Source: a virus
Length of the DNA stretch: 64,000 bases
IMG/VR virus record: IMGVR_UViG_3300028920_000056
Coordinates: 25,629 to 89,628 of that record
Strand: one strand, 5' to 3'
Below the pieces are notes generated by a model. The model made no database searches and was not told where the DNA came from. It saw only the letters and a program-made list of their open reading frames with translations. Position 1 is the stretch's first letter; each line of letters opens with the position of its first letter. Shown in pieces: positions 9,611-62,272 of this stretch. Position numbers and translations under genes: made by a program.

Positions 9611-9611
9611 A

Positions 9612-9893
9612 ATGTTTGCTTGGAAAGATATAAAATTAAAAACTATTGACTCTAAACGTGGTTATTATAAAGCTTCTTTTGAATCGTTTGAACTTGTAGC
9701 ATTTAGTAGTAGGTGGATGAATAGAATTTGGTGGGAGTTGAGATTACAAATAAAAGATAAAAAATTTAATGTACCCCATAAAACTATATATCCCAGAGAA
9801 AAAGGATTCAGAGATTCTATAGCAAAATATTTTAATAATCAACCTGATAAGATAATACGCCACATTTTCGGTGAAGAAAGTCAAGATAAATAA
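9612..9893 (+). CDS. Small family-B-like protein
   Basis: 93 residues, Trp-rich and basic (a WMNRIWWELRLQIKDKKF segment), ending IIRHIFGEESQDK, which resembles the family-B tail (x-I-I-R-x-I-F). It begins one base after the terminase stop. Function unknown. Confidence 0.55.
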   Translation: MFAWKDIKLKTIDSKRGYYKASFESFELVAFSSRWMNRIWWELRLQIKDKKFNVPHKTIYPREKGFRDSIAKYFNNQPDKIIRHIFGEESQDK

Positions 9894-9913
9894 TAATACT
9901 TAAGGAGAACACT

Positions 9914-10228
9914 ATGGCTGAGAAAATGACATTACACAGTTTCTTCAAAAATTTAAATTATTCAATCAATGAAGAGACAAAGAATTATTTGAACAACTTA
10001 AGTGAAGTCAATCTCAAACTTTTGATCAAAAGAATATATGAGAACAATGATCTTATAAAGAATGAATTGAATAGACAAGTAAAATTGACTAAATTTAAAA
10101 CAGTTCAAGATGTAGTTACAAATCTTAATTGCGAAGAAACTCTTGGTTTCATTAGTTGGATGAGTGAGAATATTTTTGGAGCAAATCAAGCTATTGAAGA
10201 AGAATTAGAAAAAATACTTACTAAATAA
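9914..10228 (+). CDS. Hypothetical helical protein
   Basis: 104 residues, all-helical pattern rich in Asn, Leu, Glu and Lys. A strong AAGGAG SD precedes ATG 9914. It lies between the terminase and an HNH gene. No family is recognised. Confidence 0.6.
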   Translation: MAEKMTLHSFFKNLNYSINEETKNYLNNLSEVNLKLLIKRIYENNDLIKNELNRQVKLTKFKTVQDVVTNLNCEETLGFISWMSENIFGANQAIEEELEKILTK

Positions 10229-10245
10229 TAAATATTGGGGATAAT

Positions 10246-10590
10246 ATGCATTTAAATCACAAAGAAAAAGTCGCTTATAGACATACTAAAGTATGGAAAG
10301 AAAAGCGACTAGCTGTGTTGAAGCGAGATGGTAACATTTGCCAATTATGTAATAGGAAATTAAGTTCAAAAAAATTACATGTCCACCATATAGATGAGGA
10401 TAAATACAAAGACATTGATGAGATTGAATATTTAGTAACTTTATGTAAAGCTTGTCATCGTCAATTTATCGAAAGATGGATAGTAAAATTAAGAAGTAAA
10501 TCATATAAACCAAATAAATATACTTTGCTTATTGAGCAAATAGTTAAAGAGTTTACGGTTGAATTAGATAGAGAGAAAACAAATGGCTAG
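10246..10590 (+). CDS. HNH endonuclease
   Basis: 114 residues with a complete HNH core: C32/C35 and C67/C70 zinc pairs, the HVHHID catalytic block (H45-D50) and CKACH at the end. This is the fold of phage HNH nucleases and homing endonucleases that nick or cut DNA. It overlaps the portal start by eight bases and therefore sits immediately beside a gene that carries an intein. It may be a free-standing homing nuclease or a packaging-associated HNH protein, as known beside terminases in other phages. The family is clear, the exact role is not. Confidence 0.85.
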   Translation: MHLNHKEKVAYRHTKVWKEKRLAVLKRDGNICQLCNRKLSSKKLHVHHIDEDKYKDIDEIEYLVTLCKACHRQFIERWIVKLRSKSYKPNKYTLLIEQIVKEFTVELDREKTNG

Positions 10591-13500
10591 AAGAAAAAAT
10601 TCAGTAAACATTTCGCAAAGAGCTGCTGTCATACAAAGTTTTTTTAATAAAATCAATGTAACAAAAATACAAGATTTAGTAAGTGGACAACAGAATGTTG
10701 GAACTGAAAATACTTTTAGTATGCAGCGTAGTTCTTTTGAGAGCATTACTTCTATAGATCAAAGTAGAGTACAAAGATATCGTGAATATGAACAGATGTG
10801 TTATGTTCCAGAACTTAATGGTGGTTTAGAAATATATGCCGATGATGCTTCATTATATAATACAAATGATGAAGTAATTGAGTCTCTTTCCGACAATAAT
10901 GAGATAGCTGATAATTTGAGCGACTTATGGTTTAAAGCGTTAGATATGAATGCTAATCTTTGGCACATTATTTATAACACTTGTAAATATGGTGACGCTT
11001 TTTATGAAGTAATACCTGATGATTATACAAACCCTAAACGATTAAAATACATGAGATATATACCTCCCCAATATGTTACTAGAGAAGAGAAAGATGGTAA
11101 TTTAATACAATTTATTGTAAGAATTCCTGCTGAAGACACAAGAAGTAGTAATTATTCATATTATGCAAATGACCAAAATAGTGAAGAAGTTTTTTTAAAA
11201 CCATGGCAAATTGTTCATTTTAAATTAGATGACAAAGAATTTGAACCATATGGAAAATCTGTTTTAGAAACAGGTAGATTAGCATTTAAACAAATGAAAT
11301 TAGTTGAAGATGCTATGTTAATCTACAGAATAACTAGAGCCCCTGAGAGAAGAATATTCACTATACCAGTTGGTAACCTTCCATTTAGAGAAGCAATGAG
11401 AAAAGTAGAAGATTTTAAACAAAGATATAGAAAAACTCCATGGATTGATCCATTAACAGGTGAAATCAATTATAAAGCAAATCCTATGTGTTTAACTATG
11501 GACACTAAGATTGATTTATTAGATGGCAGGACTTTAGAACTACAAGAAATCATAAAGGAATTCGAAGAAGGCAAGGAGCTTTGGACTTATTCAATAGATC
11601 GCGAAAATGACAATCAAATAGTTCCAGGAAAAATCGAGTGGGCAGGACCAACTCGAAAAAATGCCGAGCTAGTAGAAGTATTTATAGACAACGAAAAATC
11701 TATACGATGTACACCAGATCATAAATTCTTGTTAAGAAATGGTGAATATAAAGAGGCCCAGTACCTAAAAGCAGGTGATTCTTTGATGCCTAAGTACACA
11801 AAAGAATCTTCTAAGGGTTATGAAATGGTGTATAATCCTAAAACTAGGAAATATATTCCAACTTATATGGTAGTTGCTAGACACACTCAAGAGAAAAAGT
11901 GGAACAGAAGATGGACCAAAAGAACAATACATCACAAAGATTTTAATAAAATAAATAATAATCCAGACAATCTTTTGATATTAGAAAATAAAGATCATGT
12001 AGGATTACATGGAGAATTAAGTAAAAGAAATTGGTCTAATCCAAAATATAGAAAAAAGCAATATGAGTCTAGGGTAAAAGCTTGGAGAAATAGTTCAGAC
12101 GAGAGAAGAAAGCTACAATCAGAATTAATAACTAAATATAATAAAAGCGAAAAGCATAAAAGAGTTACTATAAGTAGAAATAAAAGAATTTGGTCAGACG
12201 AGAAAACAAAAGAAAAAATATCTGCTAATATGAGAAAACCAAAATCTACTACTGAAAACATGAAGATTAAATTCGGTGAAAAATTTTGGTCTTTTATTGA
12301 TAACGCTATTATAAAATTACAAGAACAAAACAAAGTAGTTGAATATCTAAACTCAAACAAAGAATTTATATTTCATTTCAAAACTTTAACGCCAAGAAAC
12401 AACGAGTCTATTCACAGACACTTGTTAACTAAAGCTTTTAGACAAAAAGGTTATGACGGTTTTGAAGATTATAAGTATACCTTAATTGACGATAATAGAT
12501 TGTCATATGAAGATATTAAAGACGATCATGAAAATGGTTTGAGTCAAAAAAAGATTGCTAATAAATTTGATGTTTCAAGATCGGTTATCAAAAAGTTGCT
12601 CAGAAGAAATCATAAAGTTGTAAAAGTTGTTCGCTTAAATGAACGAGAAGATACAGGCTGTATTACTGTTGCAAAATACCACAACTTTGCAATATCAGAT
12701 ATCATCGTGAGAAATTCTATCAACGATGATTTCTTTTTTCCTAGAAGACCAGATGGTAGTGGTCCAGCAGTTGAAACTTTACCAGGTGGTATGCAATTAA
12801 GTGAAATAGATGATGCAAGATTTTTTAAAGAAAAAATTCTTAGAACTATGAGAATTCCGCTTGCTTATTTAACTGGAGAAATGACAGGTGATGTCGCAAA
12901 GACTTCATTATCTGCTATGGATACTAATTTTGCTAAAACTATAGAAAGAATTCAAAAGCAGATTATAAAAAGTTTAGAAAAAATAGCGATAATTGAATTA
13001 GCATTTAAACGTTTTACAATAGAAGATTTACATGATTTTAGATTAAATCTAACAGTTCCATCAAAGATTTATGAAATGCAAGAGTTAGAGACGTTTAATG
13101 CAAAATTGAGTGCTATTCAATCAGCAATAGCACTAGCCGACGTAGAAACAAATAAACCATTTTTACCAAGAGAATGGTTATATAAAAATATAATGAAATT
13201 TAATGAAGAAGAAATATCAACTATTAAGCTTATGCAACAAGCTGAAATGGCAGAAAAAGAGGAAGATAAAGCAAGAGCAGAAGCTACTGCCGGAGGCGAA
13301 ATGGGTGGAGGTATGATGCCAGGAGGAGGTATGCCACTAGGTGGTGGTATGCCACTAGGTGGTGAACTTGGAGCTGGTGAAATGGGAGCTGGCGAAATGG
13401 GAGCCGGTGAAATGGGAGCTCTAGAGGTTGCGCCAGGCGGCCCGGCTGCTGCTGGTGGTGAAGCTGGATTAGAAATAGCAAGTAAAATAATTAAAATAGC

Positions 13501-13717
13501 CGGAAGAGAATTTTTAGTTGAAAATGAGAATGATATTAGAGAAATAATAAAATTTGTTAAAGAATTCAAAGAAAACCAAAAGAACGCTAAAGATAACTTT
13601 AGAAAGAGGTCTAAGAAAAAGTTGTATGAAAATAAGTTTGATTTACTTTTCATCCAAGGTGAATTTAAAGGCCTCATAAGACGTGTGAAAAAGAACAAAA
13701 ATATGCTGAAAGATTAA
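10583..13717 (+). CDS. gp20: Portal protein gp20-like, interrupted by intein
   Basis: 1044 residues, made of an N-extein (1-302), an intein (303-711) and a C-extein (712-1044). The joined exteins (about 635 residues) match a T4-type portal: the dodecameric ring at the packaging vertex. Recognisable parts are YEQMCYVPELNGGLEIYADDAS near residue 70, KPWQIVHFKLDD, and after the intein the NDDFFFPRRPDGSG...ETLPGG block typical of gp20. The C-terminus carries a Gly/Met-rich low-complexity tract (residues about 905-960). The intein sits at the start of the highly conserved FFFPRR block. Confidence 0.92.
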   Translation: MARRKNSVNISQRAAVIQSFFNKINVTKIQDLVSGQQNVGTENTFSMQRSSFESITSIDQSRVQRYREYEQMCYVPELNGGLEIYADDASLYNTNDEVIESLSDNNEIADNLSDLWFKALDMNANLWHIIYNTCKYGDAFYEVIPDDYTNPKRLKYMRYIPPQYVTREEKDGNLIQFIVRIPAEDTRSSNYSYYANDQNSEEVFLKPWQIVHFKLDDKEFEPYGKSVLETGRLAFKQMKLVEDAMLIYRITRAPERRIFTIPVGNLPFREAMRKVEDFKQRYRKTPWIDPLTGEINYKANPMCLTMDTKIDLLDGRTLELQEIIKEFEEGKELWTYSIDRENDNQIVPGKIEWAGPTRKNAELVEVFIDNEKSIRCTPDHKFLLRNGEYKEAQYLKAGDSLMPKYTKESSKGYEMVYNPKTRKYIPTYMVVARHTQEKKWNRRWTKRTIHHKDFNKINNNPDNLLILENKDHVGLHGELSKRNWSNPKYRKKQYESRVKAWRNSSDERRKLQSELITKYNKSEKHKRVTISRNKRIWSDEKTKEKISANMRKPKSTTENMKIKFGEKFWSFIDNAIIKLQEQNKVVEYLNSNKEFIFHFKTLTPRNNESIHRHLLTKAFRQKGYDGFEDYKYTLIDDNRLSYEDIKDDHENGLSQKKIANKFDVSRSVIKKLLRRNHKVVKVVRLNEREDTGCITVAKYHNFAISDIIVRNSINDDFFFPRRPDGSGPAVETLPGGMQLSEIDDARFFKEKILRTMRIPLAYLTGEMTGDVAKTSLSAMDTNFAKTIERIQKQIIKSLEKIAIIELAFKRFTIEDLHDFRLNLTVPSKIYEMQELETFNAKLSAIQSAIALADVETNKPFLPREWLYKNIMKFNEEEISTIKLMQQAEMAEKEEDKARAEATAGGEMGGGMMPGGGMPLGGGMPLGGELGAGEMGAGEMGAGEMGALEVAPGGPAAAGGEAGLEIASKIIKIAGREFLVENENDIREIIKFVKEFKENQKNAKDNFRKRSKKKLYENKFDLLFIQGEFKGLIRRVKKNKNMLKD
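11489..12715 (+). other. Intein with HNH homing endonuclease in portal
   Basis: 409 residues from C303 to N711 of the portal frame, followed by Ser as the first C-extein residue. Splicing motifs are present: block A CLTMDTKI, block B TPDHKF, and a C-terminal DTGC...KYHNFAISDIIVRN ending in Asn before Ser. The middle has an HNH-type nuclease (IHHKDFNKINNNPDNLLILE...H...H), followed by basic DNA-binding repeats (NWSNPKYRKKQYES, then IWSDEKTKEKIS) of the kind found in intron- and intein-encoded HNH nucleases. It should therefore be able both to splice and to home. Confidence 0.92.
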
Positions 13718-42708: not shown

Positions 42709-43746
42709 ATGATAATATTAATATACGCCGATCTACACCTCTATAATCATCATAGATTATTAGTAAATTCAGAAACTGCATTAAATAATTTAACTTATTT
42801 TAAAAATTACGCCCTATCTAATAACATCAACACTATTATATGTGCAGGTGATTTTTTTCATACTAAGGCAAGAGCCTATGCTCCACATGTGATTCAAGCA
42901 AGATTACGTCTTAAAGATTGGTTTAAAGCTGGCTTAAATCACTATATGATCATAGGTAATCATGATATGGCAAATCAAAACAATAGCATGAATTCTATTG
43001 TATTTGCTTTCAATGAATATGCAAAAATAATACCAGATTATTTCTTTATAGATATTGGACAAACTCGTCTACATTTAATGAGCTACACAAAAAGTTTATT
43101 CCCTCATTTTATTATGGCAAAAAATAGAAAGAATGTACTAATAACTCACTTAGATATTGTTGGATTTACAATGTCAAATGGATTTAGAGCTGCAAATGGA
43201 TTTAAGATGAGTGATTTAGCTGATTTTGATTTAGTCATTACTGGTCATTACCATAAGCATCAAGAAAAAGACAATATTGTTTATATAGGAAGCACGCATC
43301 AAACTAGTTTCGCAGAAAGAGATCAAACTCATGGGTTTTTAGTTTTTGATACTGATACTCTGAAATATCAATTTATCGAAAACACTGATGCTCCAAAATA
43401 TAAAGAACTTCTTATTAAAAAATATGAAGAAATAAAAGATGATGATGTATATAATAATTTCTTACGTATTAAATTGTTAACTAATCGAATAAGTTCTAGC
43501 AGACTTAAAGATTTATTGTTCGAAAAAGGCGCTCTAAGTGTTGACATCACTCCATTCGAAGATGCAAAAGAAATAAGTAAATATTATGATAAAAAGCTTA
43601 GCGATATACCTATAGAAATAGCAGCTGCTTATATAAAAAGTTTAAAGAGACTTCCTTGTAGCGAACAAAAACTTTTAGCATATTTTAATAAAATAGAAGA
43701 AGTGGCTACTCGCATATCAGATATTGAATTTGACGATATAAATTAA
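42709..43746 (+). CDS. gp47: Recombination nuclease subunit (gp47, SbcD/Mre11-like)
   Basis: 345 residues, calcineurin-like phosphoesterase: YADLHLYNHH (motif I, D-x-H), CAGDFFHTKA (II), IIGNHDMANQ (III, GNHD), ITHLDIVG and VITGHYHKHQ (metal-binding histidines). With gp46 it forms the Mre11-Rad50-type complex that resects DNA ends for recombination-dependent replication. No SD, but a CATAATTA box directly upstream. Eight bases separate it from the gp46 gene. Confidence 0.95.
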   Translation: MIILIYADLHLYNHHRLLVNSETALNNLTYFKNYALSNNINTIICAGDFFHTKARAYAPHVIQARLRLKDWFKAGLNHYMIIGNHDMANQNNSMNSIVFAFNEYAKIIPDYFFIDIGQTRLHLMSYTKSLFPHFIMAKNRKNVLITHLDIVGFTMSNGFRAANGFKMSDLADFDLVITGHYHKHQEKDNIVYIGSTHQTSFAERDQTHGFLVFDTDTLKYQFIENTDAPKYKELLIKKYEEIKDDDVYNNFLRIKLLTNRISSSRLKDLLFEKGALSVDITPFEDAKEISKYYDKKLSDIPIEIAAAYIKSLKRLPCSEQKLLAYFNKIEEVATRISDIEFDDIN

Positions 43747-43753
43747 GGAATAA

Positions 43754-45580
43754 ATGAGATTTAACTACATAAAATTAAAAAATTTTTTATGTTATGGTGA
43801 AGATCTAATTACTCTTCCGCTGTATAAAATAGGAATAACTTTTATTACAGGTGAAAACAAAAAAGATGGTGGATCTAACGGTAGCGGTAAGAGTGCCTTA
43901 ATAGTTGACTCAATAGTTTATGCTTTGTTTGGCAAGACAACTAAAAGATTCAAAGCAGACAAAGTGATCAATAATATTAATGATAAAGATTGTTTTGTTG
44001 AATTGTCATTTAACATTCGAGATGATGTGTATATCATCAGACGATATAGAAAACACACACAATTTGAAAACGATTTAGTAATAGAAAAAAATGGTGCAGT
44101 GTTAAATGATTCAGATCAAAAACGAAGTACACAAAAATTAATAGAAAATATCATAAAAATAAGCTTTAAATCTTTTGTCTTGTCAATTGTTTTAAGTCAA
44201 GAAAAAGTTGCAAATTTTGCAGAAGTTGATCCTCTTGAGCGAAAGAGAATTATTGAAAACCTTCTTATGTATGACTTCATTTCGAAATATCATAGAGCTG
44301 ACAAACAAATAATGCGAAAAATAAAACCAATAATAGAAAGATTAACTAATCAACATACAGATAAAAAAGAAGTTGTTAAAACTTTGACCAATAACTTATT
44401 AAAATATATAGACACTTGGGGAAATAATATTGAATTAAAGAAGAATAAAATCACAAGTTTAAAAAAAGAAATCAGAGAATGGAAAAATTTAAACTTGACT
44501 GAAGAATTAAAAAATCGTAATTTATTAAAGAAGAGAATTGAAGAAAAAGAAACGCTTAGAGATAAAATTTCTGGTTTAACAGAATATATAGATGAGATTC
44601 TCGAAAAAATAAATAGCGCAAGAAAAAATAAAACTTTAAAATCTTCAAAGATCGATAAATATCTATTAAGCCCAGAAGATTGTCCAGTGTGTGGAAATAG
44701 TATAAATAGTGGGAAGTTTCAAAAATTCATTTCTAGTGAAAGAGAAGAAGTTAAGAAATTGACTAAAGAAATTGATGAATTAATTGAAAAAGAAAAAGAA
44801 TTAAAAAAGAAATTAAACCGTAAAGAAAAAAGATTAAAGAGTAAAGGTGAAGAAATTAGCCAACTAAGAGAATCAATAAATGATGACTTAAATGAAGATG
44901 ACATACAAAATATTAATGACAAAATAACAAGTAACGAATCTGAGATAAAAGTGTTGCAAGAACAAATTAATGTAGACATTGAAAAAGATGAATATGTTGT
45001 TAACACACAAAAAGAAATAGACAAAGTGAAATTAGAATCCAAACATCTTAGAAGAAAAATTAGAAAACATGAAGAAGAACTCAGTTATTTTGAATGGTGG
45101 AAAGATGCATTAAGTAATTCACCAAATTCAATGAAGTCATTTTGCATTAATCATATTTTGAAATCACTAAATAAATATATTAATTATTATTTATCGTTTT
45201 TTAAATTTGATATCCAATATAAACTAGATGAAAATTTAGACGACAATTTGATTAAAGATGGAAAAGAATATACATTTGGACAATTAAGCCGTGGTGAAAA
45301 AAGAGCAGTAGAAATAAGTTTGTTGTTTGCTTTGTATGAAACAATACGTCTAAAGATGCCAGATGAAATCAATTTAATAGTGTTAGATGAGTTGCTTTCT
45401 AACTTTTTAGATGATATTAGAATTGAAGGAGCTCTTAATATCTTGCAAGAGTTAGAAGAAAGAGGTTTTGATATATTTGTAATTGAACACAAGGAAATTA
45501 TAAAAGAATCTTTAATGTGCAATACATTAAATGTAATTAAAGATCAAAAAGGATTCTCTATTTTAGAAGCAACAAACTAA
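43754..45580 (+). CDS. gp46: Recombination ATPase subunit (gp46, SbcC/Rad50-like)
   Basis: 608 residues, SMC/Rad50-type ATPase. Walker A GSNGSGKS (residues 40-47), a long antiparallel coiled coil with a zinc hook CPVC (C310, C313) at its tip, ABC signature LSRGEKRAVEIS and Walker B LIVLDELL near the C-terminus, followed by an H-loop EHKE. Partner of gp47; the gene pair has the usual T4-type order 47-46. Length is close to T4 gp46 (560). Confidence 0.95.
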   Translation: MRFNYIKLKNFLCYGEDLITLPLYKIGITFITGENKKDGGSNGSGKSALIVDSIVYALFGKTTKRFKADKVINNINDKDCFVELSFNIRDDVYIIRRYRKHTQFENDLVIEKNGAVLNDSDQKRSTQKLIENIIKISFKSFVLSIVLSQEKVANFAEVDPLERKRIIENLLMYDFISKYHRADKQIMRKIKPIIERLTNQHTDKKEVVKTLTNNLLKYIDTWGNNIELKKNKITSLKKEIREWKNLNLTEELKNRNLLKKRIEEKETLRDKISGLTEYIDEILEKINSARKNKTLKSSKIDKYLLSPEDCPVCGNSINSGKFQKFISSEREEVKKLTKEIDELIEKEKELKKKLNRKEKRLKSKGEEISQLRESINDDLNEDDIQNINDKITSNESEIKVLQEQINVDIEKDEYVVNTQKEIDKVKLESKHLRRKIRKHEEELSYFEWWKDALSNSPNSMKSFCINHILKSLNKYINYYLSFFKFDIQYKLDENLDDNLIKDGKEYTFGQLSRGEKRAVEISLLFALYETIRLKMPDEINLIVLDELLSNFLDDIRIEGALNILQELEERGFDIFVIEHKEIIKESLMCNTLNVIKDQKGFSILEATN

Positions 45581-46119: not shown

Positions 46120-47280
46120 ATGTCAGAAAACAAAGAATTAAGCGTGTTAGAAAAAAGTTTATTAGAAAACATCAATAAAAAATTTGGAAAGAGTAATCCT
46201 ATGGTTAGATTAAGCGATTCTGAGTATGGCACACCGAGAGGGTGGATAGATACTGGTATATTAGCACTTAATTGGCTTATTTCAGGTAAATTTGATGGAG
46301 GATATCCAGTTGGCCGTATCACTGAACTAGATGGAGATCCTGGTACTGGTAAATCATTATTATGTCAGATGGCCATAGTTGATCCCACAATTGGATTAAC
46401 TGTTTATTTTGATACAGAAGCAGCATTGAATCAAGAATTTCTTCAATTCTTAGGAGTTGATCCGTCTAAAATCTTGTATGAGCCAATTGACACAGTAGAA
46501 CAATTGATTGAAATCTGTCAAGAAGTTTTAGATACGATTGTAATGAACAAGCAAACAGAAAAGAAGGTTTTAATGCTCATTGATTCTGTCGCTCTTGCCT
46601 CAACAGAAAAAGAGATGGATCCAGAAGCTGGTAGTGACATGGGTTATAAAGCTAGACTATTAAGAAAATTCTTCAGAGTGTATGCCAGAAAGATTGAGAA
46701 ATATAACATAGCACTTTTAGTTACTAATCATTATACTCAGAAGATTGGTATGGTATTTGGCAATCCAAAAACTACTACAGGTGGTACAGCACTTCCTTAT
46801 GCCGCATCAGTAAGAATAGATCTTAAAATAGCTAAAACAGACATAGCAGATAAAAAGCTAGAATCACTTGGTGCATCATCTGTAACATTAAAAGCAAAAA
46901 CAGAAAAGAATAGATGTTTTTCCCCAAAAAGAAAGGTCACATTTGTTTTAGATTTTGAAAAGGGAGTACATCGTTATTCAGGTCTTTTTAATATATTAAA
47001 AGAATTTGGTATAGCTGAAAAAAATGGTGCATGGTGTAAACTTCCACAGTGGAGTACTGAAGAAAAATTTTATGAAAAAGATTTTCCAAAAATAGCTGAG
47101 GAGAATAATTTACTTCCATTGATTGAAAGTTTACTTACTAAAAAAATAAAGAATGTTGATATTGAACTACAAGCTGCAATAGAATCTGAAGCAATTAGTG
47201 AAGCAGAGGTAAATGAAGAAACACTTGATACAATTAAATCAAAAAAGAAAAGAAATAAAAAACTTATAATAGAAAATTAA
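46120..47280 (+). CDS. uvsX: UvsX, RecA-type recombinase
   Basis: 386 residues with AAAGGAG SD. RecA core: Walker A GDPGTGKS (72-79), catalytic-type FDTEAALN, Walker B MLIDSVALAS, L2-like TTGGTALPYAAS. It forms filaments on single-stranded DNA for strand exchange and replication restart. Length matches T4 UvsX (391). The Lys-rich C-terminus is usual. It lies with gp46/gp47, UvsW, primase and helicase genes. Confidence 0.95.
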   Translation: MSENKELSVLEKSLLENINKKFGKSNPMVRLSDSEYGTPRGWIDTGILALNWLISGKFDGGYPVGRITELDGDPGTGKSLLCQMAIVDPTIGLTVYFDTEAALNQEFLQFLGVDPSKILYEPIDTVEQLIEICQEVLDTIVMNKQTEKKVLMLIDSVALASTEKEMDPEAGSDMGYKARLLRKFFRVYARKIEKYNIALLVTNHYTQKIGMVFGNPKTTTGGTALPYAASVRIDLKIAKTDIADKKLESLGASSVTLKAKTEKNRCFSPKRKVTFVLDFEKGVHRYSGLFNILKEFGIAEKNGAWCKLPQWSTEEKFYEKDFPKIAEENNLLPLIESLLTKKIKNVDIELQAAIESEAISEAEVNEETLDTIKSKKKRNKKLIIEN

Positions 47281-47978: not shown

Positions 47979-48383
47979 ATGAATGTAAGAAAATTTTCTT
48001 ATCGAAAGAAAAAAGACGAACAAGAAAAAACTTATATCGTTTTATTATTAGATCCACCTGATAACAAACCAGATTTAATTGGTGGTCTTGATTTAACTAA
48101 ATTAAATGACACTGAAATTGCTGAAATAATAAAACTAGTTAATGAATATGAAACTGATATTCGTATATTACAAACTGATGCACTAAAAAGAAAAATGAGT
48201 TTTGATGAAATGGTCAATGGCTCAGACTATCTTAAAATGTCTGAGTATTATAAAGAAAAAACACAACCATTTATCAAAAAAGCTTATCGTCTTTATATTC
48301 GTGATAGAATTACTAACAACTATGATCTTGATGATATTGATCATTTTATTGAGAAAATTATTAGAGAAAAGAATAGTCTATGA
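47979..48383 (+). CDS. Hypothetical protein before UvsW
   Basis: 134 residues with AAGGAG SD; beta-strand start (TYIVLLLDPPDNKPDLIGGLD) then helices. It overlaps uvsW by four bases, suggesting linked expression. No motif recognised. Confidence 0.6.
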   Translation: MNVRKFSYRKKKDEQEKTYIVLLLDPPDNKPDLIGGLDLTKLNDTEIAEIIKLVNEYETDIRILQTDALKRKMSFDEMVNGSDYLKMSEYYKEKTQPFIKKAYRLYIRDRITNNYDLDDIDHFIEKIIREKNSL

Positions 48384-49786
48384 TAGTGTTAGTACTTAGA
48401 AATAGTTTTTTAATTCTAAGCAGCGACGATGAAGACTTACTTGAAAATATTTATAATACTCTTACTTTTAATGACACATCAAAAGCATACAACTATTACA
48501 AAGGTTTTGATAAAGACAAAATTAAAAAAGTAAGATTTGCAAAATTTATAGATGGTTTAGATTTACCAAGTTTAAGAATTCCAATTGGATTTGAATATTT
48601 CATAAAATCAGTTTTAGAAGATTATGAACATACTGTTATAGATGAAAGACCAGAATTGTCAAAGATTGACATAAACAACATTAAATTAAATGGGATTGAT
48701 TTTTGGGAACATCAAATAGAAGAAATTCGAACAGCTTTAAATAATAGAAGAGGGATTATAAAAGCTCCAACAGGTAGTGGAAAAACAGAAACTTTCTTAG
48801 CAATATTAAAACTTCTTAATTCACCATCTTTAGTAGTGTTTAATAGAGTTCAAATAACACATCAGACTAGACAGAGAGCTGAAGATCGTGGATTAGAAGC
48901 TGGCATAATACAGGGTAGTAATGTATTAGAAAAAAATATAACAATGGCAACAATCAACAGTATAAAAAAAATAGATAAGATTGAAAAATACAAAAATTTG
49001 ATATTGGACGAGTGTCATGGCTGTAGTGCGGATAACTATCAAAAGTTAATCAAATTAAAACATTGGGAACGAATTTATGGATTTTCTGCGACACCAATAC
49101 ACCCAACTAAATTTACATTAAAGACTGCAAAGATTGTTTCAAATATTGGGAATATTATATTTGAAGAAAAACCCAAAGCTTTGATTGATAAAGGTATAAT
49201 TGCTAAACCAAAAATAATATTTTTACCTGTTACACAACCAGAAGATATTGATGGTTTTGATTACAGAAATGCCGAAGCACTTGGCATTGTTAATAACCCA
49301 TATCGTAATAATTTAATAAAGCTTATATCTGAAAAACACTCTGATGAAAAAAGGCTGATTCTCACTAAATATGTTAAACAGGGAGAAATTATAAGCAATT
49401 TATTAGAAGCACCATTCATTTGGCATGAGACCAAATTAAATGACAGGTTAAAAATTTTAGATCAATTTGATAATGGAGATTTAAATTTATTAGTAGCCTC
49501 AAGAATATTAGATGAAGGCATTGATATAAAAAATTTTACAGTTTTAATTATTGCCAGTGCTGGAACATCTTTTACAAAAACTATTCAAAGATTAGGTAGA
49601 GGATTAAGAATCACTAAAAAGAAAAAATATATAACTGTATATGATTTCTGGGATGAAACACATAATATATTATTAAAATGGTCAAAAAATCGTAAGAAAG
49701 ATTACGCTTCTTTTGGATATAAAGACATACTTAATATTAAGGAGGAAGAAGACATTGACTTATATTTACGTTTGCGATCCATGTAA
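48380..49786 (+). CDS. uvsW: UvsW-type SF2 DNA helicase
   Basis: 468 residues. Helicase motifs: I APTGSGKT (129-136), II LDECHG, III FSATP, and V/VI LDEGIDIKNF and QRLGRGLR. The N-terminal roughly 95 residues match the small extra domain of UvsW. The enzyme remodels branched DNA and R-loops and helps the switch from origin- to recombination-dependent replication in T4. Slightly shorter than T4 UvsW (about 503). Confidence 0.92.
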   Translation: MIVLVLRNSFLILSSDDEDLLENIYNTLTFNDTSKAYNYYKGFDKDKIKKVRFAKFIDGLDLPSLRIPIGFEYFIKSVLEDYEHTVIDERPELSKIDINNIKLNGIDFWEHQIEEIRTALNNRRGIIKAPTGSGKTETFLAILKLLNSPSLVVFNRVQITHQTRQRAEDRGLEAGIIQGSNVLEKNITMATINSIKKIDKIEKYKNLILDECHGCSADNYQKLIKLKHWERIYGFSATPIHPTKFTLKTAKIVSNIGNIIFEEKPKALIDKGIIAKPKIIFLPVTQPEDIDGFDYRNAEALGIVNNPYRNNLIKLISEKHSDEKRLILTKYVKQGEIISNLLEAPFIWHETKLNDRLKILDQFDNGDLNLLVASRILDEGIDIKNFTVLIIASAGTSFTKTIQRLGRGLRITKKKKYITVYDFWDETHNILLKWSKNRKKDYASFGYKDILNIKEEEDIDLYLRLRSM

Positions 49787-51327: not shown

Positions 51328-51726
51328 ATGATTAATTATTTTATTGATGAAAAAGAAATACTTGAAACAAAAATTAGCCAGGCTAATGATGGATTAAATT
51401 TAATTAATAAAACAAATAATATTATAAACAGTAAGTTTGATAATATTGTAAAATTAGCAATATATATGTTTATTGCACATCGGGAGAAACAATATGAAAA
51501 TTCTATAATATATTGGGTCGAAGATGAAAATAAATATATATTAGATAGTAACATAATTACAATATTAGAAGATGTGAAACATCAAACAAAAAATTTATTA
51601 AAAGATAAAGTTGTCTGGCAAATTAAAGGATTTGATAAGTATTATGAAAAAGCAAAAGAAGTTTTAAAACTAACAGAAAATGATTTAGAGAAAGCAATTG
51701 AATTAGTGAAAGTCATGAATAAATGA
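51328..51726 (+). CDS. Triplet family D, member 3
   Basis: 132 residues with FDNIVKLAIYMFIAHRE, TKNLLKDKVVWQI and NDLEKAIELVKVM. GAAAGG precedes the ATG. The stop overlaps the primase start by four bases, placing the triplet in the replication operon. Confidence 0.6.
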   Translation: MINYFIDEKEILETKISQANDGLNLINKTNNIINSKFDNIVKLAIYMFIAHREKQYENSIIYWVEDENKYILDSNIITILEDVKHQTKNLLKDKVVWQIKGFDKYYEKAKEVLKLTENDLEKAIELVKVMNK

Positions 51727-52754
51727 AAATAAAATACCACTTCAATACAATTGAACGTCTCATAAAAGAATTAGTTGGTGATTATAAAATAACAGGTGAT
51801 GGTGAGATTGCTATTAATTCACCATTTATAAAAGACACTACATATGATTGTCGGATAAGTATTGACAAACAATGTTGGCATGATTTTGAAAGTGATGAAG
51901 GTGGTAACTTAATTTCTCTTATTGCCACACTTGCAAATATAGACAAAGAAGCAGCTGAGCAGATGCTACTAGAATATGCTTTGAAAGATGGTAAGCTAGT
52001 TGAGCATAAAATTGAAAAAAAGAAATCGCTAATACAAGAACTTAAAACAATTAAGTTACCACCTGGATCACATACATTTAATAAGACTGAACAATTTGGC
52101 TCAATAAGTGGTAGAAAACAGGCAATGAGATTTTTAATAAAAAAGCTTGTCTCTGCAAAATTATCAAAAAAATATAATTTACGTTGGACTGATTGTTCAT
52201 ATATAGATTATCCAAATGTCAAAAACAAAAAATTAAATTTAAGCAATAGGATAATTATTCCTTCTTATGAAAACAATAAATTAGTTTATTATCAAGCAAG
52301 AGATTTTACAGAGAGAAGTGAATTTCGTTGGAAAAATCCTCCCAAAGATATTCAGCCAAAAAATATTGTATTACCATTTTATGACACTATAAAAGTTGGA
52401 GAAATATTATTTATTAGTGAAGGGCCTTGGGAAGCAATACAATATGGTGGTACCTATATGATTGGTAATGTTTTATCGGACGCTCAAATTTTAAAAATAA
52501 AGAAAAAGAATCCAGAAGCAATATATATCATTCCCGATAATGATGAAACAGCTAGAAGAAAATTAGTGAGAAACGTAACTTATTTGAGATCATATTTGGG
52601 TTGTCCCATAATTATAGTAAAATGGTGGATTGGAAAATATTCTAAATTTAAAGATCCTATTGATGCTAGTATAAATTACAACGAATTATTAAATTCTGAA
52701 TTTATCGAAGCAGATAGAAATATTGAACTTAATATGAAAATGGGTATATTATGA
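51723..52754 (+). CDS. gp61: DNA primase (gp61-like)
   Basis: 343 residues. The C-terminal half is a Toprim domain (LFISEGPWEAIQYGG with the catalytic-type Glu, and YIIPDNDETARRKL with the D-x-D pair). The N-terminal part (DCRISIDKQCWHDFESDEGGNLISLI) matches the zinc-binding domain of DnaG/gp61 primases in layout, but only two cysteines are visible, so the usual zinc site seems to be missing. It works with the gp41-type helicase encoded nearby. Length equals T4 gp61 (342). Confidence 0.85.
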   Translation: MKIKYHFNTIERLIKELVGDYKITGDGEIAINSPFIKDTTYDCRISIDKQCWHDFESDEGGNLISLIATLANIDKEAAEQMLLEYALKDGKLVEHKIEKKKSLIQELKTIKLPPGSHTFNKTEQFGSISGRKQAMRFLIKKLVSAKLSKKYNLRWTDCSYIDYPNVKNKKLNLSNRIIIPSYENNKLVYYQARDFTERSEFRWKNPPKDIQPKNIVLPFYDTIKVGEILFISEGPWEAIQYGGTYMIGNVLSDAQILKIKKKNPEAIYIIPDNDETARRKLVRNVTYLRSYLGCPIIIVKWWIGKYSKFKDPIDASINYNELLNSEFIEADRNIELNMKMGIL

Positions 52755-54006: not shown

Positions 54007-55758
54007 ATGGATGAAAAACTAACTCTTGGAAAATTAGAATATCTCATTTTAAATTTTTCACTACGTGATCGACCTTTCTGGTTAAAAATATTTGAAACAA
54101 TCAAGAAAGATTATTTTGAAAATAAGAATAATCAAATTATTTTTGAATTTTTCAAAAATTATTTTTCTAAATATAATGAGCTACCAGATTACCAAATAAC
54201 AGAAAACAAACTTAATAGTAAAGTAGAAGACAAAATTTTAAAATCAATTTATGAGCCAGCAGTTGATACAATTCAGCCACAATTTATATATGATGAGACG
54301 CACAATTTTATTATTGAAAATATGATGCGCAAAAAGCTTCTCAAATCAATTGATTTATTAAAGAATAAAAAGTTCGACGATATTTATCATGAGATTAGAG
54401 AGGTAATGAAATTCAATTTTGATAGTTCATTAGGTTTGAGTTTATTAGATGTTGATGGAAGATATGAAAAAATCAAAGCACTTGAAAAAGAAAAAATAGA
54501 AACAGGTTTTCCAGTATTTAATTCTATATTAAATGGTGGTTGGGCTAAAAAAGAATTATATGCAGTTGCAGCCCCACCGGGAATTGGCAAATGTCAAACT
54601 TATGATACAGAAATTGAAATAGAAATAGACGAAAACGACCCTGTTTATAAAAAAATATCAAAATTTTTATATGATAAAGATCAAACAGTAGTAATGGCAA
54701 CAATAAAAGCTAAAATAAAAATAGGTGATCTTGTAGAAGCATTGGGGGCTATAGTGCCTGAACAAGAAGTAGACATATCTTCTTCCAGCCTAAAAATTAA
54801 TACACCATATGGATATAAAAAAATAATGGGAATACGTAAAACAAAAAAATTGCCTATTGCAAAATTATCGACTGATAGCTATATCTTAAGATGCGCAACA
54901 GAACATAGGGTAGAAACTAACAGCGGATTCAAATTTGTAACCGAAGCAAAAGAAGTTGTAACAAAAGATGGTGTTAAAAAGTGTAAAGTTAAAATTGAAT
55001 CTAAAAAAGAAAATTGTTATGATGTACAAGTTGAAGATTGTCATAGTTATTGGTCTAATAATATACATAGCCACAATTCTATCTTCTTAGCTAATTGGGG
55101 AGTTAATGCAATTAAATTAGGATATAATGTTTTAGTATATACACTAGAAATTTCAGAAGAAAGATATTCACAAAGACATGATGCTATATTAACTAAGATA
55201 CCAACGGATGAGTTGCTATTTGATATCAATAAAATAATAAAGAAATATGAATTATTTAAGAAAACAAGCAAAGCAAATTTATGGATAAAAGAATTTCCAA
55301 CTAAGCTTGCTTCTATCAATACATTACGATCGCATTATGAACAGCTTAAGCTATATGAAAATTTCATACCAGATATTATTTTCGTTGATTATGCTGGTTT
55401 AATGAAACCAAGCTATAGAGTTGGTAATGATTATGACGATTTAAAAACTATCTATGAAGATCTTAGGGGTTGGGCTGTTGAATTAGATTTACCCATTGTT
55501 ACTGCTGCTCAAACAAATAGAAAATCTTTAAATGACAAAGGTGGTACAAAAGAAATTATAACACAAGCACAAGTTGCTGAATCTCTTGGTATTACTCAAA
55601 CTCTAGATTTATTTATGACAATAACACAAAGTAAAAATGAAAAAACAGATGGTTTAATTAACTTATATATTGACAAACATAGACATGGTGAATCTTCAAA
55701 ATTATTAAAGTACTCAATAGATTATAGAAACTTTTTTTTAGAAGAGTATGATCTTTAA
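54007..55758 (+). CDS. gp41: Replicative DNA helicase (gp41/DnaB-like) with mini-intein
   Basis: 583 residues: N-extein 1-195, intein 196-357, C-extein 358-583. Joined exteins give about 421 residues, a normal RecA-fold hexameric helicase size. The P-loop APPGIGK | S is cut by the intein between Lys and Ser. Later motifs are intact: YTLEISEERY, DIIFVDYAGL (Walker B), TAAQTNRKS and IDKHRHGESSK (arginine-finger region). Without splicing the enzyme cannot bind ATP. It unwinds the replication fork and partners the gp61-type primase. TAGGAG SD. Confidence 0.93.
   Translation: MDEKLTLGKLEYLILNFSLRDRPFWLKIFETIKKDYFENKNNQIIFEFFKNYFSKYNELPDYQITENKLNSKVEDKILKSIYEPAVDTIQPQFIYDETHNFIIENMMRKKLLKSIDLLKNKKFDDIYHEIREVMKFNFDSSLGLSLLDVDGRYEKIKALEKEKIETGFPVFNSILNGGWAKKELYAVAAPPGIGKCQTYDTEIEIEIDENDPVYKKISKFLYDKDQTVVMATIKAKIKIGDLVEALGAIVPEQEVDISSSSLKINTPYGYKKIMGIRKTKKLPIAKLSTDSYILRCATEHRVETNSGFKFVTEAKEVVTKDGVKKCKVKIESKKENCYDVQVEDCHSYWSNNIHSHNSIFLANWGVNAIKLGYNVLVYTLEISEERYSQRHDAILTKIPTDELLFDINKIIKKYELFKKTSKANLWIKEFPTKLASINTLRSHYEQLKLYENFIPDIIFVDYAGLMKPSYRVGNDYDDLKTIYEDLRGWAVELDLPIVTAAQTNRKSLNDKGGTKEIITQAQVAESLGITQTLDLFMTITQSKNEKTDGLINLYIDKHRHGESSKLLKYSIDYRNFFLEEYDL
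54592..55077 (+). other. Mini-intein in helicase P-loop
   Basis: 162 residues, C196 to N357, then Ser. Block A CQTYDTEIEIEI, block B LRCATEHRVETNSG (T-x-x-H), C-terminal blocks ENCYDVQVEDCHSYWSNNIHSHN. Too short for a homing endonuclease and none is visible, so it is a splicing-only element, or a formerly mobile one. Insertion inside the Walker A motif is a classic intein position. Confidence 0.93.
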
Positions 55759-57507: not shown

Positions 57508-58785
57508 ATGGAGATTAATGGTAAATATGGTAGTGCTATTGTTTATAATGATACAATAGAACAGGAAGCAATTTCTCAAATAATCAATCTATTAAACCAA
57601 GAAATGGCAAAAGATGCTCATGTAAGAATAATGCCAGATGTTCATGCTGGTGCCGGTTGTGTAATTGGTTATACTGCAAAATTAACTGAAAAAGTAGTGC
57701 CTAATTTAATAGGTGTTGATATTGGTTGTGGTGTAACTGCTTGGAAATTAGGTCCGGCACATATAATAAAATCTAAATTTGATAAATTAGATAAATTCAT
57801 AAGAAAAAATATTCCATCAGGTAGAAATATTCACACAATTGCAAATTGGCATTTAGAATCAGCTGGTTGTTTTTCTAATAGATTGGCCATGAATATGAAA
57901 ATATCTGATTTCTTTAATCATATAAAAGAAGTTTGTTCTAGAACTAAACAAGAATATTCTTATGTTGAAAGCTCTCTTGGAACTCTTGGTGGTGGCAATC
58001 ATTTTATTGAAATTGATAAAGATTATGATAACAATTACTGGTTAATTATACATTCAGGCTCAAGAAATTTTGGCTTGAAAGTTGCTAAATATCACCAGAG
58101 CTTAGCCCAATTAAATCAAAATATGGATAAAGAAGAATATCAAAAAAGAATTGAAATAATCAAGAAAACAAAAAAAGGTAAAGGTATTGAAGTTGCAATT
58201 AATGCATTAAGAAAAGAAATGCAAAAACCACATACAATTACTGGTCTAGAATATTTAGAAGGTGATTATATTACTGATTATTTAAATGACATGCAAATTG
58301 CACAATTATATGCTAAACTCAACAGAAGACTAATGGGTTATAGAATAATTACTAAATTTTATAAATTAAAATATAAAGATATACAGTGTGTTGAATCAGT
58401 ACATAATTATATCAATTTAACAGATAGAATAATACGTAAAGGTGCTATTTCTGCACATGAAAATGAAATGGTAATTATTCCACTAAATATGGCTGATGGT
58501 TGTATAGTTGGTACTGGTAAAGGTAATAGTGAATGGAATAATTCAGCTCCGCATGGTGCAGGCAGAAAAATGAGTCGAAATGCAGCAAAAGCAAATATTG
58601 ATTTGAGTGATTATCAGAAGATAATGCAGAAGAATAAAGTTTGGACAAGTTGCATTTCTAAACACACTCTTGATGAGGCACCACAAGCATATAAAAAAGC
58701 TTCTCATATTATAGAATATTTAAAAGATACTGTAGAAATATATTGTCACATGAAACCTGTTTATAATTTTAAAGCTGACTCATAA
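57508..58785 (+). CDS. rtcB: RtcB RNA ligase
   Basis: 425 residues, GTP/Mn-dependent ligase joining 2',3'-cyclic phosphate or 3'-phosphate RNA ends to 5'-OH ends. Metal and active-site blocks: MPDVHAGAGCVIGY, GVDIGCGVTAW, GGGNHFIEID, IIHSGSRNFG and the guanylated-His block NSAPHGAGRKMSR. Length fits the short bacterial/phage RtcB class. The enzyme could repair tRNAs cut by host anticodon nucleases. It has its own promoter-like element, shared with the PARP gene immediately downstream. Confidence 0.95.
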   Translation: MEINGKYGSAIVYNDTIEQEAISQIINLLNQEMAKDAHVRIMPDVHAGAGCVIGYTAKLTEKVVPNLIGVDIGCGVTAWKLGPAHIIKSKFDKLDKFIRKNIPSGRNIHTIANWHLESAGCFSNRLAMNMKISDFFNHIKEVCSRTKQEYSYVESSLGTLGGGNHFIEIDKDYDNNYWLIIHSGSRNFGLKVAKYHQSLAQLNQNMDKEEYQKRIEIIKKTKKGKGIEVAINALRKEMQKPHTITGLEYLEGDYITDYLNDMQIAQLYAKLNRRLMGYRIITKFYKLKYKDIQCVESVHNYINLTDRIIRKGAISAHENEMVIIPLNMADGCIVGTGKGNSEWNNSAPHGAGRKMSRNAAKANIDLSDYQKIMQKNKVWTSCISKHTLDEAPQAYKKASHIIEYLKDTVEIYCHMKPVYNFKADS

Positions 58786-58808: not shown

Positions 58809-58823
58809 TATCTAGGAGGTCAA

Positions 58824-60053
58824 ATGGAAAATAAAGGTACTAAAAAACTTATAATGGTGACCGCTGATAATAATAACAAATTTTATAATATGAAAGATAA
58901 TGGTGATGGTACTTTTAAAGTTGAATGGGGTAGAGTAGGAGTTACTTCTAGTGAAACAACTTATCCAATTTCCAAATGGGATAGTATTTATAGACAAAAA
59001 ACCAAGAAAGGTTATAAAGATATAACAGAAATTTTTGTAGAAGCTGGCATTGATGAAGAAACAAGTTTTGCTGATATAACCAATACACAAATATCTAAAT
59101 TGGTTAATGCATTGCAATCTTATGCAAAAGGCTCTGTAAAGAAAAATTATTTAGTAACTTCTGAGAATGTTACTCAAAAACAAGTTGATGAAGCTCAAAA
59201 CATAATAGATCAAATAACTTCTGAGAGTAGTCAAAAAAATGTAGTAGTCGAGAATATAAATGATCTACTTACAGACTTATATTCTATAATTCCTCGAAGA
59301 ATGTCAAATGTTCGCATGCATCTTTTCAATACTACTGAGGGAATGAATTTTAGTTCTGACAATGTCAACCATTTAATTGCAAATGAACAAGCAACTTTAG
59401 ATGTTATGGCTGGACAAGTCTCAACTATTGCAAAGACTAAAACTGTTGATCACAAAGAAGAAAAAACATTACTAGATGCAATGGGTATTACCATCGAGCA
59501 AATCGATGCTAAAGATAAAGAAACAATCATGCAGCTTCTTGGATCGAATGCTAGACAATTTCGCAACGCATACAGAGTTACTAATCTTGCGACTCAAAGT
59601 CGCTATGACAAATGGGTAGAGAAGTCAAAAGACAAAAGAGCATTCTATTTTTGGCATGGATCTAGGAATGAAAATTGGTGGTCAATTTTAGATACAGGCT
59701 TAGTGCTTAGACCATCAAATGCAGTAATTACTGGTAAGATGTTTGGTTATGGACTTTACTTTGCAGACAAAGCTCAGAAGTCAATTGGATATACTTCACT
59801 AAGAGGTTCTTATTGGGCATCTGGCTCTGCCAATAAAGCTTATTTAGCTGTATTCCAAGTTCACACTGGAAATTGGTTACATTTTAAAACTCATGAATAT
59901 TGGATGTATGATCTTAATGAAAAGAATCTAAAGAGTAGAGGCTCTTATGATTCACTATTTGCTGAAGGCGGAGCTGATCTTAGAAACAATGAATATATAG
60001 TTTATAACCAAGCACAATGTTCAGTAAAATATTTAGTTGAGATAGGAGATTAA
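58824..60053 (+). CDS. WGR-domain poly(ADP-ribose) polymerase
   Basis: 409 residues. WGR domain at about 8-75 (FKVEWGRVGV, W35-G36-R37), a helical regulatory-type region at about 125-225 (LLTDLYSIIPRRMSN), and a PARP catalytic domain from about 265. The NAD-binding triad is complete: H278 in FWHGSRNENWWSIL, Y312 in GYGLYFAD, E390 in NNEYIVYN. E390 is the residue needed for chain elongation in PARP1-type enzymes. It should transfer ADP-ribose from NAD+ to DNA-break-associated proteins, itself or nucleic acid. The role in infection is unknown: DNA-end signalling, host take-over or counter-defence. Confidence 0.93.
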   Translation: MENKGTKKLIMVTADNNNKFYNMKDNGDGTFKVEWGRVGVTSSETTYPISKWDSIYRQKTKKGYKDITEIFVEAGIDEETSFADITNTQISKLVNALQSYAKGSVKKNYLVTSENVTQKQVDEAQNIIDQITSESSQKNVVVENINDLLTDLYSIIPRRMSNVRMHLFNTTEGMNFSSDNVNHLIANEQATLDVMAGQVSTIAKTKTVDHKEEKTLLDAMGITIEQIDAKDKETIMQLLGSNARQFRNAYRVTNLATQSRYDKWVEKSKDKRAFYFWHGSRNENWWSILDTGLVLRPSNAVITGKMFGYGLYFADKAQKSIGYTSLRGSYWASGSANKAYLAVFQVHTGNWLHFKTHEYWMYDLNEKNLKSRGSYDSLFAEGGADLRNNEYIVYNQAQCSVKYLVEIGD

Positions 60054-60337: not shown

Positions 60338-60397
60338 TTGTTTCGATAAGTTGGATAAGGAGAAAGATATGGAAAAGAAAAAATTAGGAAATTGTGC

Positions 60398-60805
60398 ATG
60401 GTAAGAAAAGCAAAGAAATATTCGGTTGAAGAAGTATTACAACATGTTCGCATACCCAATAATGATTCAGATGTTGAAAGAAGAGATTTTGATGGTGATC
60501 TTATTAAAATTTCTTCACTGCGTCTTGCCACTTTCAAATATAAAGGTTGTAAATGTATTAAATGTGGTACTGAAGGTACATATTTCTTTAAAGAAAAACA
60601 TAATAGAAAAGGAAAAATTTATCACTTTAATCTTTATGGAATTAATGCAGAAGGTATAGAAGTACTCATGACTAAAGACCACATTATTCCAAAAAGTAAA
60701 GGTGGTAAAAACTATATAGATAACATGCAAACAATGTGCCAATATTGTAATTGTGAAAAGGGCAATAAAGTGAAAGGAGAAGAAGATGATAAGGAATCTG
60801 TTTGA
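60398..60805 (+). CDS. HNH endonuclease
   Basis: ATG 60398 is chosen over TTG 60392. 135 residues with zinc pairs C53/C56 and C114/C117 and the catalytic TKDHIIPKSKGGKN block (D94-H95). A free-standing HNH nuclease, possibly of homing type, close to PARP and RNA-ligase genes. Overlaps the next gene by 20 bases. Confidence 0.85.
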   Translation: MVRKAKKYSVEEVLQHVRIPNNDSDVERRDFDGDLIKISSLRLATFKYKGCKCIKCGTEGTYFFKEKHNRKGKIYHFNLYGINAEGIEVLMTKDHIIPKSKGGKNYIDNMQTMCQYCNCEKGNKVKGEEDDKESV

Positions 60806-61088: not shown

Positions 61089-61244
61089 ATGGATAGATTT
61101 GAAGAAGTGTACTGTTGGTATTGTGGCAAGTGCATTAAATTACAACATTGGTTAAATTTTAAAAAGACTAAAAAATATTGTAATTTATTTTGTTGGTTAA
61201 AATATAATTTGGAGAAATTATGGAAAGGAAACTTGCGTCATTAG
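61089..61244 (+). CDS. Small CxxC protein overlapping RNA ligase
   Basis: 51 residues (MDRFEEVYCWYCGKCIKLQH...YCNLFC): five or more cysteines in a zinc-finger-like order. Candidate leaderless gene; its 3' end overlaps the ligase start by 25 bases and contains that gene's TTGGAG SD. Confidence 0.5.
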   Translation: MDRFEEVYCWYCGKCIKLQHWLNFKKTKKYCNLFCWLKYNLEKLWKGNLRH

Positions 61245-62272
61245 AAGTTATTAAAAGTTTAAGACCAATACCAGGTGCTGACAATATTGAAGTTGCAACT
61301 GTAAAAGGTTGGCATTGTGTTGTTAAAAAAGGTGATTTTAAAATTGGTGATTGGTGTATATATTTTGAAGTTGATTCAGTTTTACCAGAATTAGAACCTT
61401 TTGAATTCTTAAGAAAAAATTGTTGGATTGAACGCTACAAAGGTTTCAGAATTAAAACTGTCAAACTTCGTGGCCAAGTGTCGCAAGGTTTAGTAATGCC
61501 ACTTACAATATTCTTATCTTTAAAAAGACATATTGAGCCGGCTTATTTAGAACCTGGAATAGATTTAACTAATACTTTTAATGTTCAAAAATATGTACCA
61601 GAAATTCCAAGTTGTTTGTCTGGTAAAGTAGTTGCACCTTTCCCAACTAATATAATTCCCAAAACAGATGAAGAACGTGTCGAAAATTTATCAGACACTT
61701 TAGAACAACTACATGGTACTTCAATTTATATAACAGAAAAACTAGATGGTTCCTCTTGTACTTTTTATTTATATGATGATCATTTTGGAGTGTGTGGTCG
61801 AAATTGGGAGTGGGAAGAAGATAACAAAAATATGAACTGGGAAATAGCTCGTAAGTATGATATAGAAAATAAGCTGCGTTATTATAAATTACAAACCGGT
61901 TGTGAGATTGCATTACAAGGTGAAATAATCGGACCTGGTATACAAAAGAATAAATATAATTTAGATAAAGTGACAGTAAGATTTTTTACTTCTCATGATT
62001 TAACAAAACATCAACAAGATACATTTGCTAGACTATTAAGCATCTTGAGATATTTAAATTTGAAACCAGTACCAATAGTAGATAAATATTCTATTCTAGA
62101 AAAAGATTCTGATTATTGGATTGAGAAATCAAAAGGATTTAGTACTTTAAATTCAAGAATTAAACGTGAAGGTATAGTTGTTAAGACATTAGAAAACAAG
62201 ACGTGGCCAGGTCTTGGAATAATTTCATTCAAAGCAATCAATCCAGAATATTTATTGAAATATGGAGAATAA
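61220..62272 (+). CDS. RNA ligase, Rnl5/DraRnl type
   Basis: 350 residues, the layout of Deinococcus DraRnl: N-terminal OB-like module (KLASLEVIKSLRPIPGADNIEVATV, G-D-W-C-I-Y-F-E-V-D) followed by a nucleotidyltransferase core. Motif I EKLDGSS with nucleophile K174, then CGRNWEW, motif III/IIIa LQGEIIGPG, IV EGIVVKT and V FKAINPEYL. It seals 3'-OH/5'-PO4 RNA ends, a chemistry complementary to RtcB. All catalytic motifs are intact. Confidence 0.9.
   Translation: MERKLASLEVIKSLRPIPGADNIEVATVKGWHCVVKKGDFKIGDWCIYFEVDSVLPELEPFEFLRKNCWIERYKGFRIKTVKLRGQVSQGLVMPLTIFLSLKRHIEPAYLEPGIDLTNTFNVQKYVPEIPSCLSGKVVAPFPTNIIPKTDEERVENLSDTLEQLHGTSIYITEKLDGSSCTFYLYDDHFGVCGRNWEWEEDNKNMNWEIARKYDIENKLRYYKLQTGCEIALQGEIIGPGIQKNKYNLDKVTVRFFTSHDLTKHQQDTFARLLSILRYLNLKPVPIVDKYSILEKDSDYWIEKSKGFSTLNSRIKREGIVVKTLENKTWPGLGIISFKAINPEYLLKYGE

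Follow-up and report, generated by a model that had tools for sequence, protein, structure and literature searches.

The locus analysed here raises the question of why a phage should carry a PARP with a DNA-break-sensing domain, and what such an enzyme might do for it. The gene lies in a stretch of 64,000 nucleotides (hereafter the window) of IMG/VR virus record IMGVR_UViG_3300028920_000056. An earlier note on this DNA had assigned it to a phage, in agreement with the genes for terminase, portal, major head protein, tail sheath and T4-like replication proteins that identify the carrier as a T4-like myovirus. A scan of the window for open reading frames returned the PARP gene at exactly the coordinates and on the strand proposed (58824-60053, +), as an ATG-initiated, uninterrupted frame of 409 aa with a Shine-Dalgarno sequence, AGGAGG (58814-58819, +), four bases 5' of the start codon. 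In comparison with the four closest relatives, pS is near or beyond saturation (0.67-0.91) while pN amounts to 0.24-0.26, which marks the frame as a real gene under strong purifying selection.

Profile searches and structural modeling both suggest that the protein shares the WGR-HD-ART domain order of human PARP1, PARP2 and PARP3. The Pfam PARP family matches residues 250-407 (E 9.5e-23) and the WGR family residues 14-67, the latter barely over the cut-off (E 6.3e-5), and the profile of the phage family PHROG 23333 covers almost the full length (residues 14-407 of 409, E 2.5e-63). When aligned to human PARP2, this phage-family profile extends from the WGR domain through the HD into the ART domain (E 1.6e-31); the Pfam model for the PARP regulatory domain (HD) has no match in the window protein. 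Accordingly, an AlphaFold2 model built on an alignment of 60 phage sequences (pLDDT 89.7, pTM 0.83) predicts a WGR domain consisting of a beta domain and a helix (residues 6-71; 58839-59036, +), a helical domain (residues 88-206; 59085-59441, +) that is missed by Pfam and recovered by the model and the profile alignment, and a mixed alpha/beta ART catalytic domain (residues 222-408; 59487-60047, +). In Foldseek, the model is matched best by break-bound structures of human PARP1 and PARP2 in the PDB (E ~1e-21 to 1e-20, ~20% identity), and PARP3 is matched as well; in contrast to the human proteins, the phage protein is devoid of zinc fingers, a BRCT domain and the N-terminal tail of PARP2. The block between WGR and ART is HD-like in the predicted structure and represents a candidate autoinhibitory domain. 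Similarly, in clade 1 bacterial PARPs (Cytophagales, Clostridiales) the HD is invisible to Pfam but seen in models (PMC5966428). The earlier note had read a WGR domain, a helical regulatory-like region and a PARP1-like catalytic domain from the letters, and this architecture is upheld by Pfam, the PARP2 profile alignment and the AlphaFold2 model it had called for; the loss of NAD+ binding that it named as counter-evidence was not found, as judged by the conserved residues and the predicted fold.

Alignments place the catalytic triad at His278 (59655-59657, +), Tyr312 (59757-59759, +) and Glu390 (59991-59993, +), corresponding to H862, Y896 and E988 of PARP1. The H-Y-E triad is complete, as had been claimed, and invariant among 60 phage relatives; across 109 sequences from phages and bacteria, His and Tyr are invariant and Glu is present in 108. 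A PARP of [Clostridium] citroniae (L130:4980-6128) has Leu at the position of the catalytic Glu, and its shortened ORF is perhaps degenerate or frameshifted. The intact glutamate had also been taken to permit chain formation. Glu390 is permissive in this sense but does not prove that chains are formed, since human PARP3 has been described as restricted to mono-ADP-ribosylation (PMC8150716) and PARP4 is named a mono-ADP-ribosyltransferase in the PDB. Within the WGR domain, alignment and residue counting match N16, N18, K19, R37 and K59 to N127, N129, K130, R153 and K183 of PARP2, and all five are invariant across the 60 phage proteins; W35 aligns with PARP2 W151, and the counterpart of Y201 is uncertain. 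In PARP2, the 5'-phosphorylated break is read by W151, K130, K183 and Y201, while R153 and N127 bridge to the HD; an N129A variant shows no activity, and DNA-dependent activity is lost when R153 or N127 is mutated (PMC8190142). The conserved WGR residues provide the best computational evidence obtained here for a predicted dependence on DNA breaks. We consider it quite likely that the window protein is a DNA-break-activated ADP-ribosyltransferase of the PARP1/2/3 type, both its activity and its DNA dependence being predicted from sequence and model.

Such an enzyme had been thought to be rare in phages, a view that can no longer be held. Relatives were identified in 15 GenBank phage records and, by a single-protein query, in about 90 IMG/VR contigs or stretches; Cellulophaga phage phi4:1, Klebsiella phage vB_KpM_FBKp34 and Xanthomonas phage XacN1 (BBA65562.1) already carry a PARP annotation in GenBank, phage PARPs with the triad were listed by Perina et al. 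2014 (PMC4245714), and phage PARPs were also discussed by Iyer et al. 2021 and 2022 (PMC7824862, PMC9503650). The window PARP is a further member of this phage family known from surveys. The PHROG 23333 proteins of phi4:1, FBKp34 and XacN1 resemble it in full-length homology, the combination of WGR and ART, and the triad, but GenBank phage proteins are only 23-44% identical to it and have other neighbour genes. Its closest kin are encoded by metagenomic phages (62-69% identity), and the nearest chromosomal proteins, from Bacteroidota (50-53%), are cellular clade 1 PARPs which likewise combine WGR and ART with a Pfam-invisible HD (PMC5966428). The phylogeny with bacterial PARPs that had been proposed as a check was computed as a quick maximum-likelihood tree with SH-aLRT support only and contains long branches; it places the window PARP in a five-member phage clade (support 98), with the chromosomal Bacteroidota PARPs forming a clade of their own (99) in the same region and a third clade (97) in which Clostridia and phages are mixed. 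Two bacterial relatives, HaPARP and CdPARP, are DNA-dependent PARPs by biochemical analysis (PMC5966428, PMC4245714). T4 Alt, ModA and ModB are also phage NAD+-dependent ADP-ribosyltransferases, as is predicted for the window protein, but they belong to the R-S-E clade of the ART superfamily and possess neither WGR nor HD (PMC9503650), so that the distinction drawn in the earlier note is well founded.

The window PARP stands at the end of a run of recombination and replication genes that are all oriented in the same direction (+). The run starts with a gp47/SbcD-like (Mre11-type) nuclease (42709-43746) and continues with a gp46/SbcC-like (Rad50-type) subunit (43754-45580), a UvsX-like recombinase of the RecA family (46120-47280), a superfamily 2 helicase that is UvsW-like by position and domains (48380-49786), a DNA primase (51723-52754) and a DnaB-like helicase with an intein-like insert (54007-55758). 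Small ORFs and an RtcB RNA ligase (57508-58785), which ends 38 bases 5' of the PARP ATG, come next, and the PARP is followed by an HNH endonuclease ORF, possibly a free-standing homing endonuclease (60392-60805), and a DRB0094-type RNA ligase (61220-62272). The insert in the DnaB-like helicase comprises about 160 aa after the Walker A lysine and has intein-like ends (Cys start, His-Asn/Ser end); a similar insert occurs in the related locus L006, and the L002 gene is in two parts with a separate ORF between them. RtcB and the RNA ligase were considered as functional partners of the PARP and dropped as a general rule, as in non-redundant phage loci RtcB is found near the PARP in 0/54 and relatives of the DRB0094-type ligase in 8/54; as RtcB does not neighbour the PARP in these relatives, RNA repair is not a common theme.

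A different partner emerges in a related clade of phage PARPs. Here, at least 23 phage loci out of a non-redundant set of 54 encode a macrodomain protein of about 140 aa, of the TARG1/OARD1 type, whose gene ends at most 60 bp before the PARP start; five others have the gene no more than 1.5 kb upstream, at least one of them with a homing-endonuclease-like ORF in between. A Pfam search adds several more macrodomain loci to this count, and we list the gene directly 5' of the PARP at L031:7553-7990, L023:7551-7988, L036:7527-7964 and in roughly 25 further phage loci. Adjacency to the PARP is seen in 23 of the 29 loci with a macrodomain, compared to about 2 expected at random gene order, a rough expectation which takes the loci as independent of shared descent. 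The paired macrodomain matches human TARG1/OARD1 with an E-value of 5e-25 and, weakly, DarG. Some copies (e.g. L024 and L028) have Asn instead of Asp in the GLD motif, and these macrodomains may therefore bind rather than cleave. At several loci a DNA ligase of the ATP or NAD+ type or an ERCC4 nuclease is encoded just 5' of the macrodomain-PARP pair, and in Cellulophaga phage phi4:1 a DNA ligase is located one gene from the PARP. A macrodomain is encoded somewhere in each of the five GenBank PARP records that were examined; this genome-wide presence was rejected as evidence, and only adjacency was counted, because 40-56% of medium and jumbo phages carry a macrodomain anyway (PMC9503650). The pairing belongs to this other clade: no macrodomain adjoins the PARP in the window or in its closest relatives, and the 89.6-kb record of the window, which is a fragment, contains no macrodomain, ADP-ribosylhydrolase or NADAR gene. 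An ADP-ribosyltransferase next to a macrodomain is reminiscent of DarT/DarG, a likeness confined to the related clade; DarT is of another ART family, and the partner of the phage PARPs is closest to TARG1/OARD1. The window PARP does not form a DarTG-type system, as it matches no family in PADLOC (or in NCBIfam) and lacks a macrodomain partner.

In Bacteroidota-type loci, a small protein with the motif TTTLEVK..LR..G.xA.Q is encoded directly 3' of the PARP in 26 of 36 cases (L101:6264-6527, L108:6261-6557, L096:6304-7257 and 23 more), a gene that is absent from the window record. It is also present in 7 of 54 phage loci from the wider clade of the window, among them L076:7411-7956, L003:2202-2669, L006:12626-13075, L010:11671-12222 and L016:10579-11400. 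The model of the small protein adopts a winged helix (pLDDT 89.9) whose Foldseek matches are weak and confined to winged-helix repressors, the domain has no Pfam family above the cut-off, and a single-protein search retrieved only the protein itself. A WGR domain is fused to the C-terminus of some copies, and among GenBank phages the protein was found only in LR756500, which has a PARP as well. The TTTLEVK-motif proteins constitute an undescribed winged-helix family linked to PARP.

Genes for NAD+ supply recur in phages that encode a PARP. An NAPRTase gene adjoins the PARP in two of the nearest relatives of the window (L002, L006), and in a third (L004/L005) an NAD synthase is encoded about 2 kb away. 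Among PARP records of 100 kb or more, 15 of the 28 of IMG/VR type and 3 of 4 additional ones from GenBank (together 18/32) carry an NAPRTase/NAMPT-family gene, compared to 0 of 8 PARP-less DnaE relatives (Fisher p 0.011, for records that are related to each other); major-head-protein relatives were rejected as a control set, as they are mostly short fragments. The tie between NAD+-supply genes and phage PARPs is suggestive, given the kinship of the records and a published base rate of 22-33% in medium and jumbo phages. No NAPRTase/NAMPT gene was found in the window record, an 89.6-kb fragment. To the left of the window, the same record encodes a HIGH-type nucleotidyltransferase (L199:10568-11746; CTP_transf_like, GRFQP motif), possibly an NMN adenylyltransferase.

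What, then, might the enzyme do for the phage? Expressed probably together with the recombination and replication genes whose run it closes, the PARP would act on breaks and nicks in replicating phage DNA. Through N16, N18, K19, R37 and K59, the WGR domain may dock on a nick or a double-strand end bearing a 5' phosphate; DNA binding would destabilise the helical domain obstructing the NAD+ site, and the ART domain, using H278, Y312 and E390, would then ADP-ribosylate the enzyme itself, proteins in its vicinity or the DNA end. The ADP-ribose might serve as a transient mark that is removed by a macrodomain, an ADP-ribosylhydrolase or another eraser. The earlier note had suggested that the enzyme could mark breaks in host DNA, alter NAD+ or oppose defence. 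Since the PARP ends the gp47/gp46-UvsX-UvsW-primase-DnaB run, gene context favours the phage's own DNA metabolism, but such genes are common in T4-like phages and their proximity is weak evidence. On balance, we favour a break-activated ADP-ribosyltransferase for which DNA metabolism is the foremost candidate role; the specific assignment to repair or replication of the phage's own DNA is put forward tentatively.

Gene context also bears on the proposal that phage PARPs take over the host (PMC7824862). In that case the enzyme would ADP-ribosylate host RNA polymerase, translation or nucleoid proteins in the manner of T4 Alt and ModA, with host DNA breaks serving as the switch only. Phage ADP-ribosyltransferases are enriched in myoviruses, which is in line with this proposal, but many of them are encoded with head and packaging genes (PMC9503650), whereas the window PARP is part of a replication and repair run; moreover, constitutive modification of the host needs neither a break-sensing domain nor a paired eraser, and we regard this role as unlikely. 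Modification of nucleic-acid ends is rated slightly lower still. Capping of DNA (or RNA) ends with ADP-ribose at their 5' or 3' phosphates might protect these ends or mark them for phage ligases, and there is precedent in PARP3, which places single ADP-ribose units on terminal phosphates at breaks (PMC8150716), and in PARP2, which modifies DNA ends (PMC8190142). The RNA ligases flanking the window PARP and the ligases adjoining the PARP-macrodomain pair of several relatives would fit this activity, but the RNA-ligase adjacency is not conserved. In addition, the eraser resembles TARG1, which is best known for acting on protein Glu/Asp-ADP-ribose.

At a similarly low and marginally smaller probability, the PARP might be a counter-defence or superinfection effector fired by DNA ends that arise from defence nucleases or a rival phage, with the adjacent macrodomain acting as its antitoxin, as DarG does for DarT. 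The weak match of the paired macrodomain to DarG points in this direction, as do the ART-hydrolase and sirtuin-macro toxin-antitoxin pairs known in phages (PMC9503650), but the missing PADLOC assignment, the lack of an adjacent macrodomain in the window and its closest relatives, and the characterization of the bacterial relatives as DNA-damage PARPs (PMC5966428, PMC4245714) argue against it. Finally, a bacterial gene acquired recently and without a selected function in the phage would be compatible with the nearby branch of Bacteroidota PARPs at 50-53% identity; the well-supported five-member phage clade, the strong purifying selection and the invariant functional residues render this highly improbable.

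Extending the favoured role in DNA metabolism beyond the window, it might be speculated, with more reserve than for the window gene itself, that large phages possess an ADP-ribosylation cycle of their own, reversible and triggered by breaks, for the repair or replication of their DNA, composed of a PARP2-like writer, a TARG1-like eraser (encoded directly 5' in one clade), ligases or nucleases and often an NAD+ supply, and that in the Bacteroidota branch the winged-helix partner replaces the eraser. Surveys have recorded phage PARPs for over a decade, and our literature search, with most subscription journals outside its scope, found no experimental or biochemical study of any of them. The window PARP is a good subject for direct assays, as it offers a complete gene with the triad, five PARP2-matched residues and a position in a T4-like recombination/replication run, and the TARG1-like eraser encoded beside the PARP in the related clade makes for a testable writer/eraser pair. 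Such a phage pair represents a simple system for the effects of break-induced ADP-ribosylation without chromatin.

Two minor observations concern other parts of the record. The portal protein (10583-13717, 1044 aa) contains an internal HNH-endonuclease-like segment (~404-590), perhaps an intein or an in-frame homing element. To the left of the window, small ORFs (L200:2413-3344 and 9373-10217) encode WVxKNGKxGHVDxxGxxTTPIIYD repeats and are probably WG-repeat proteins.
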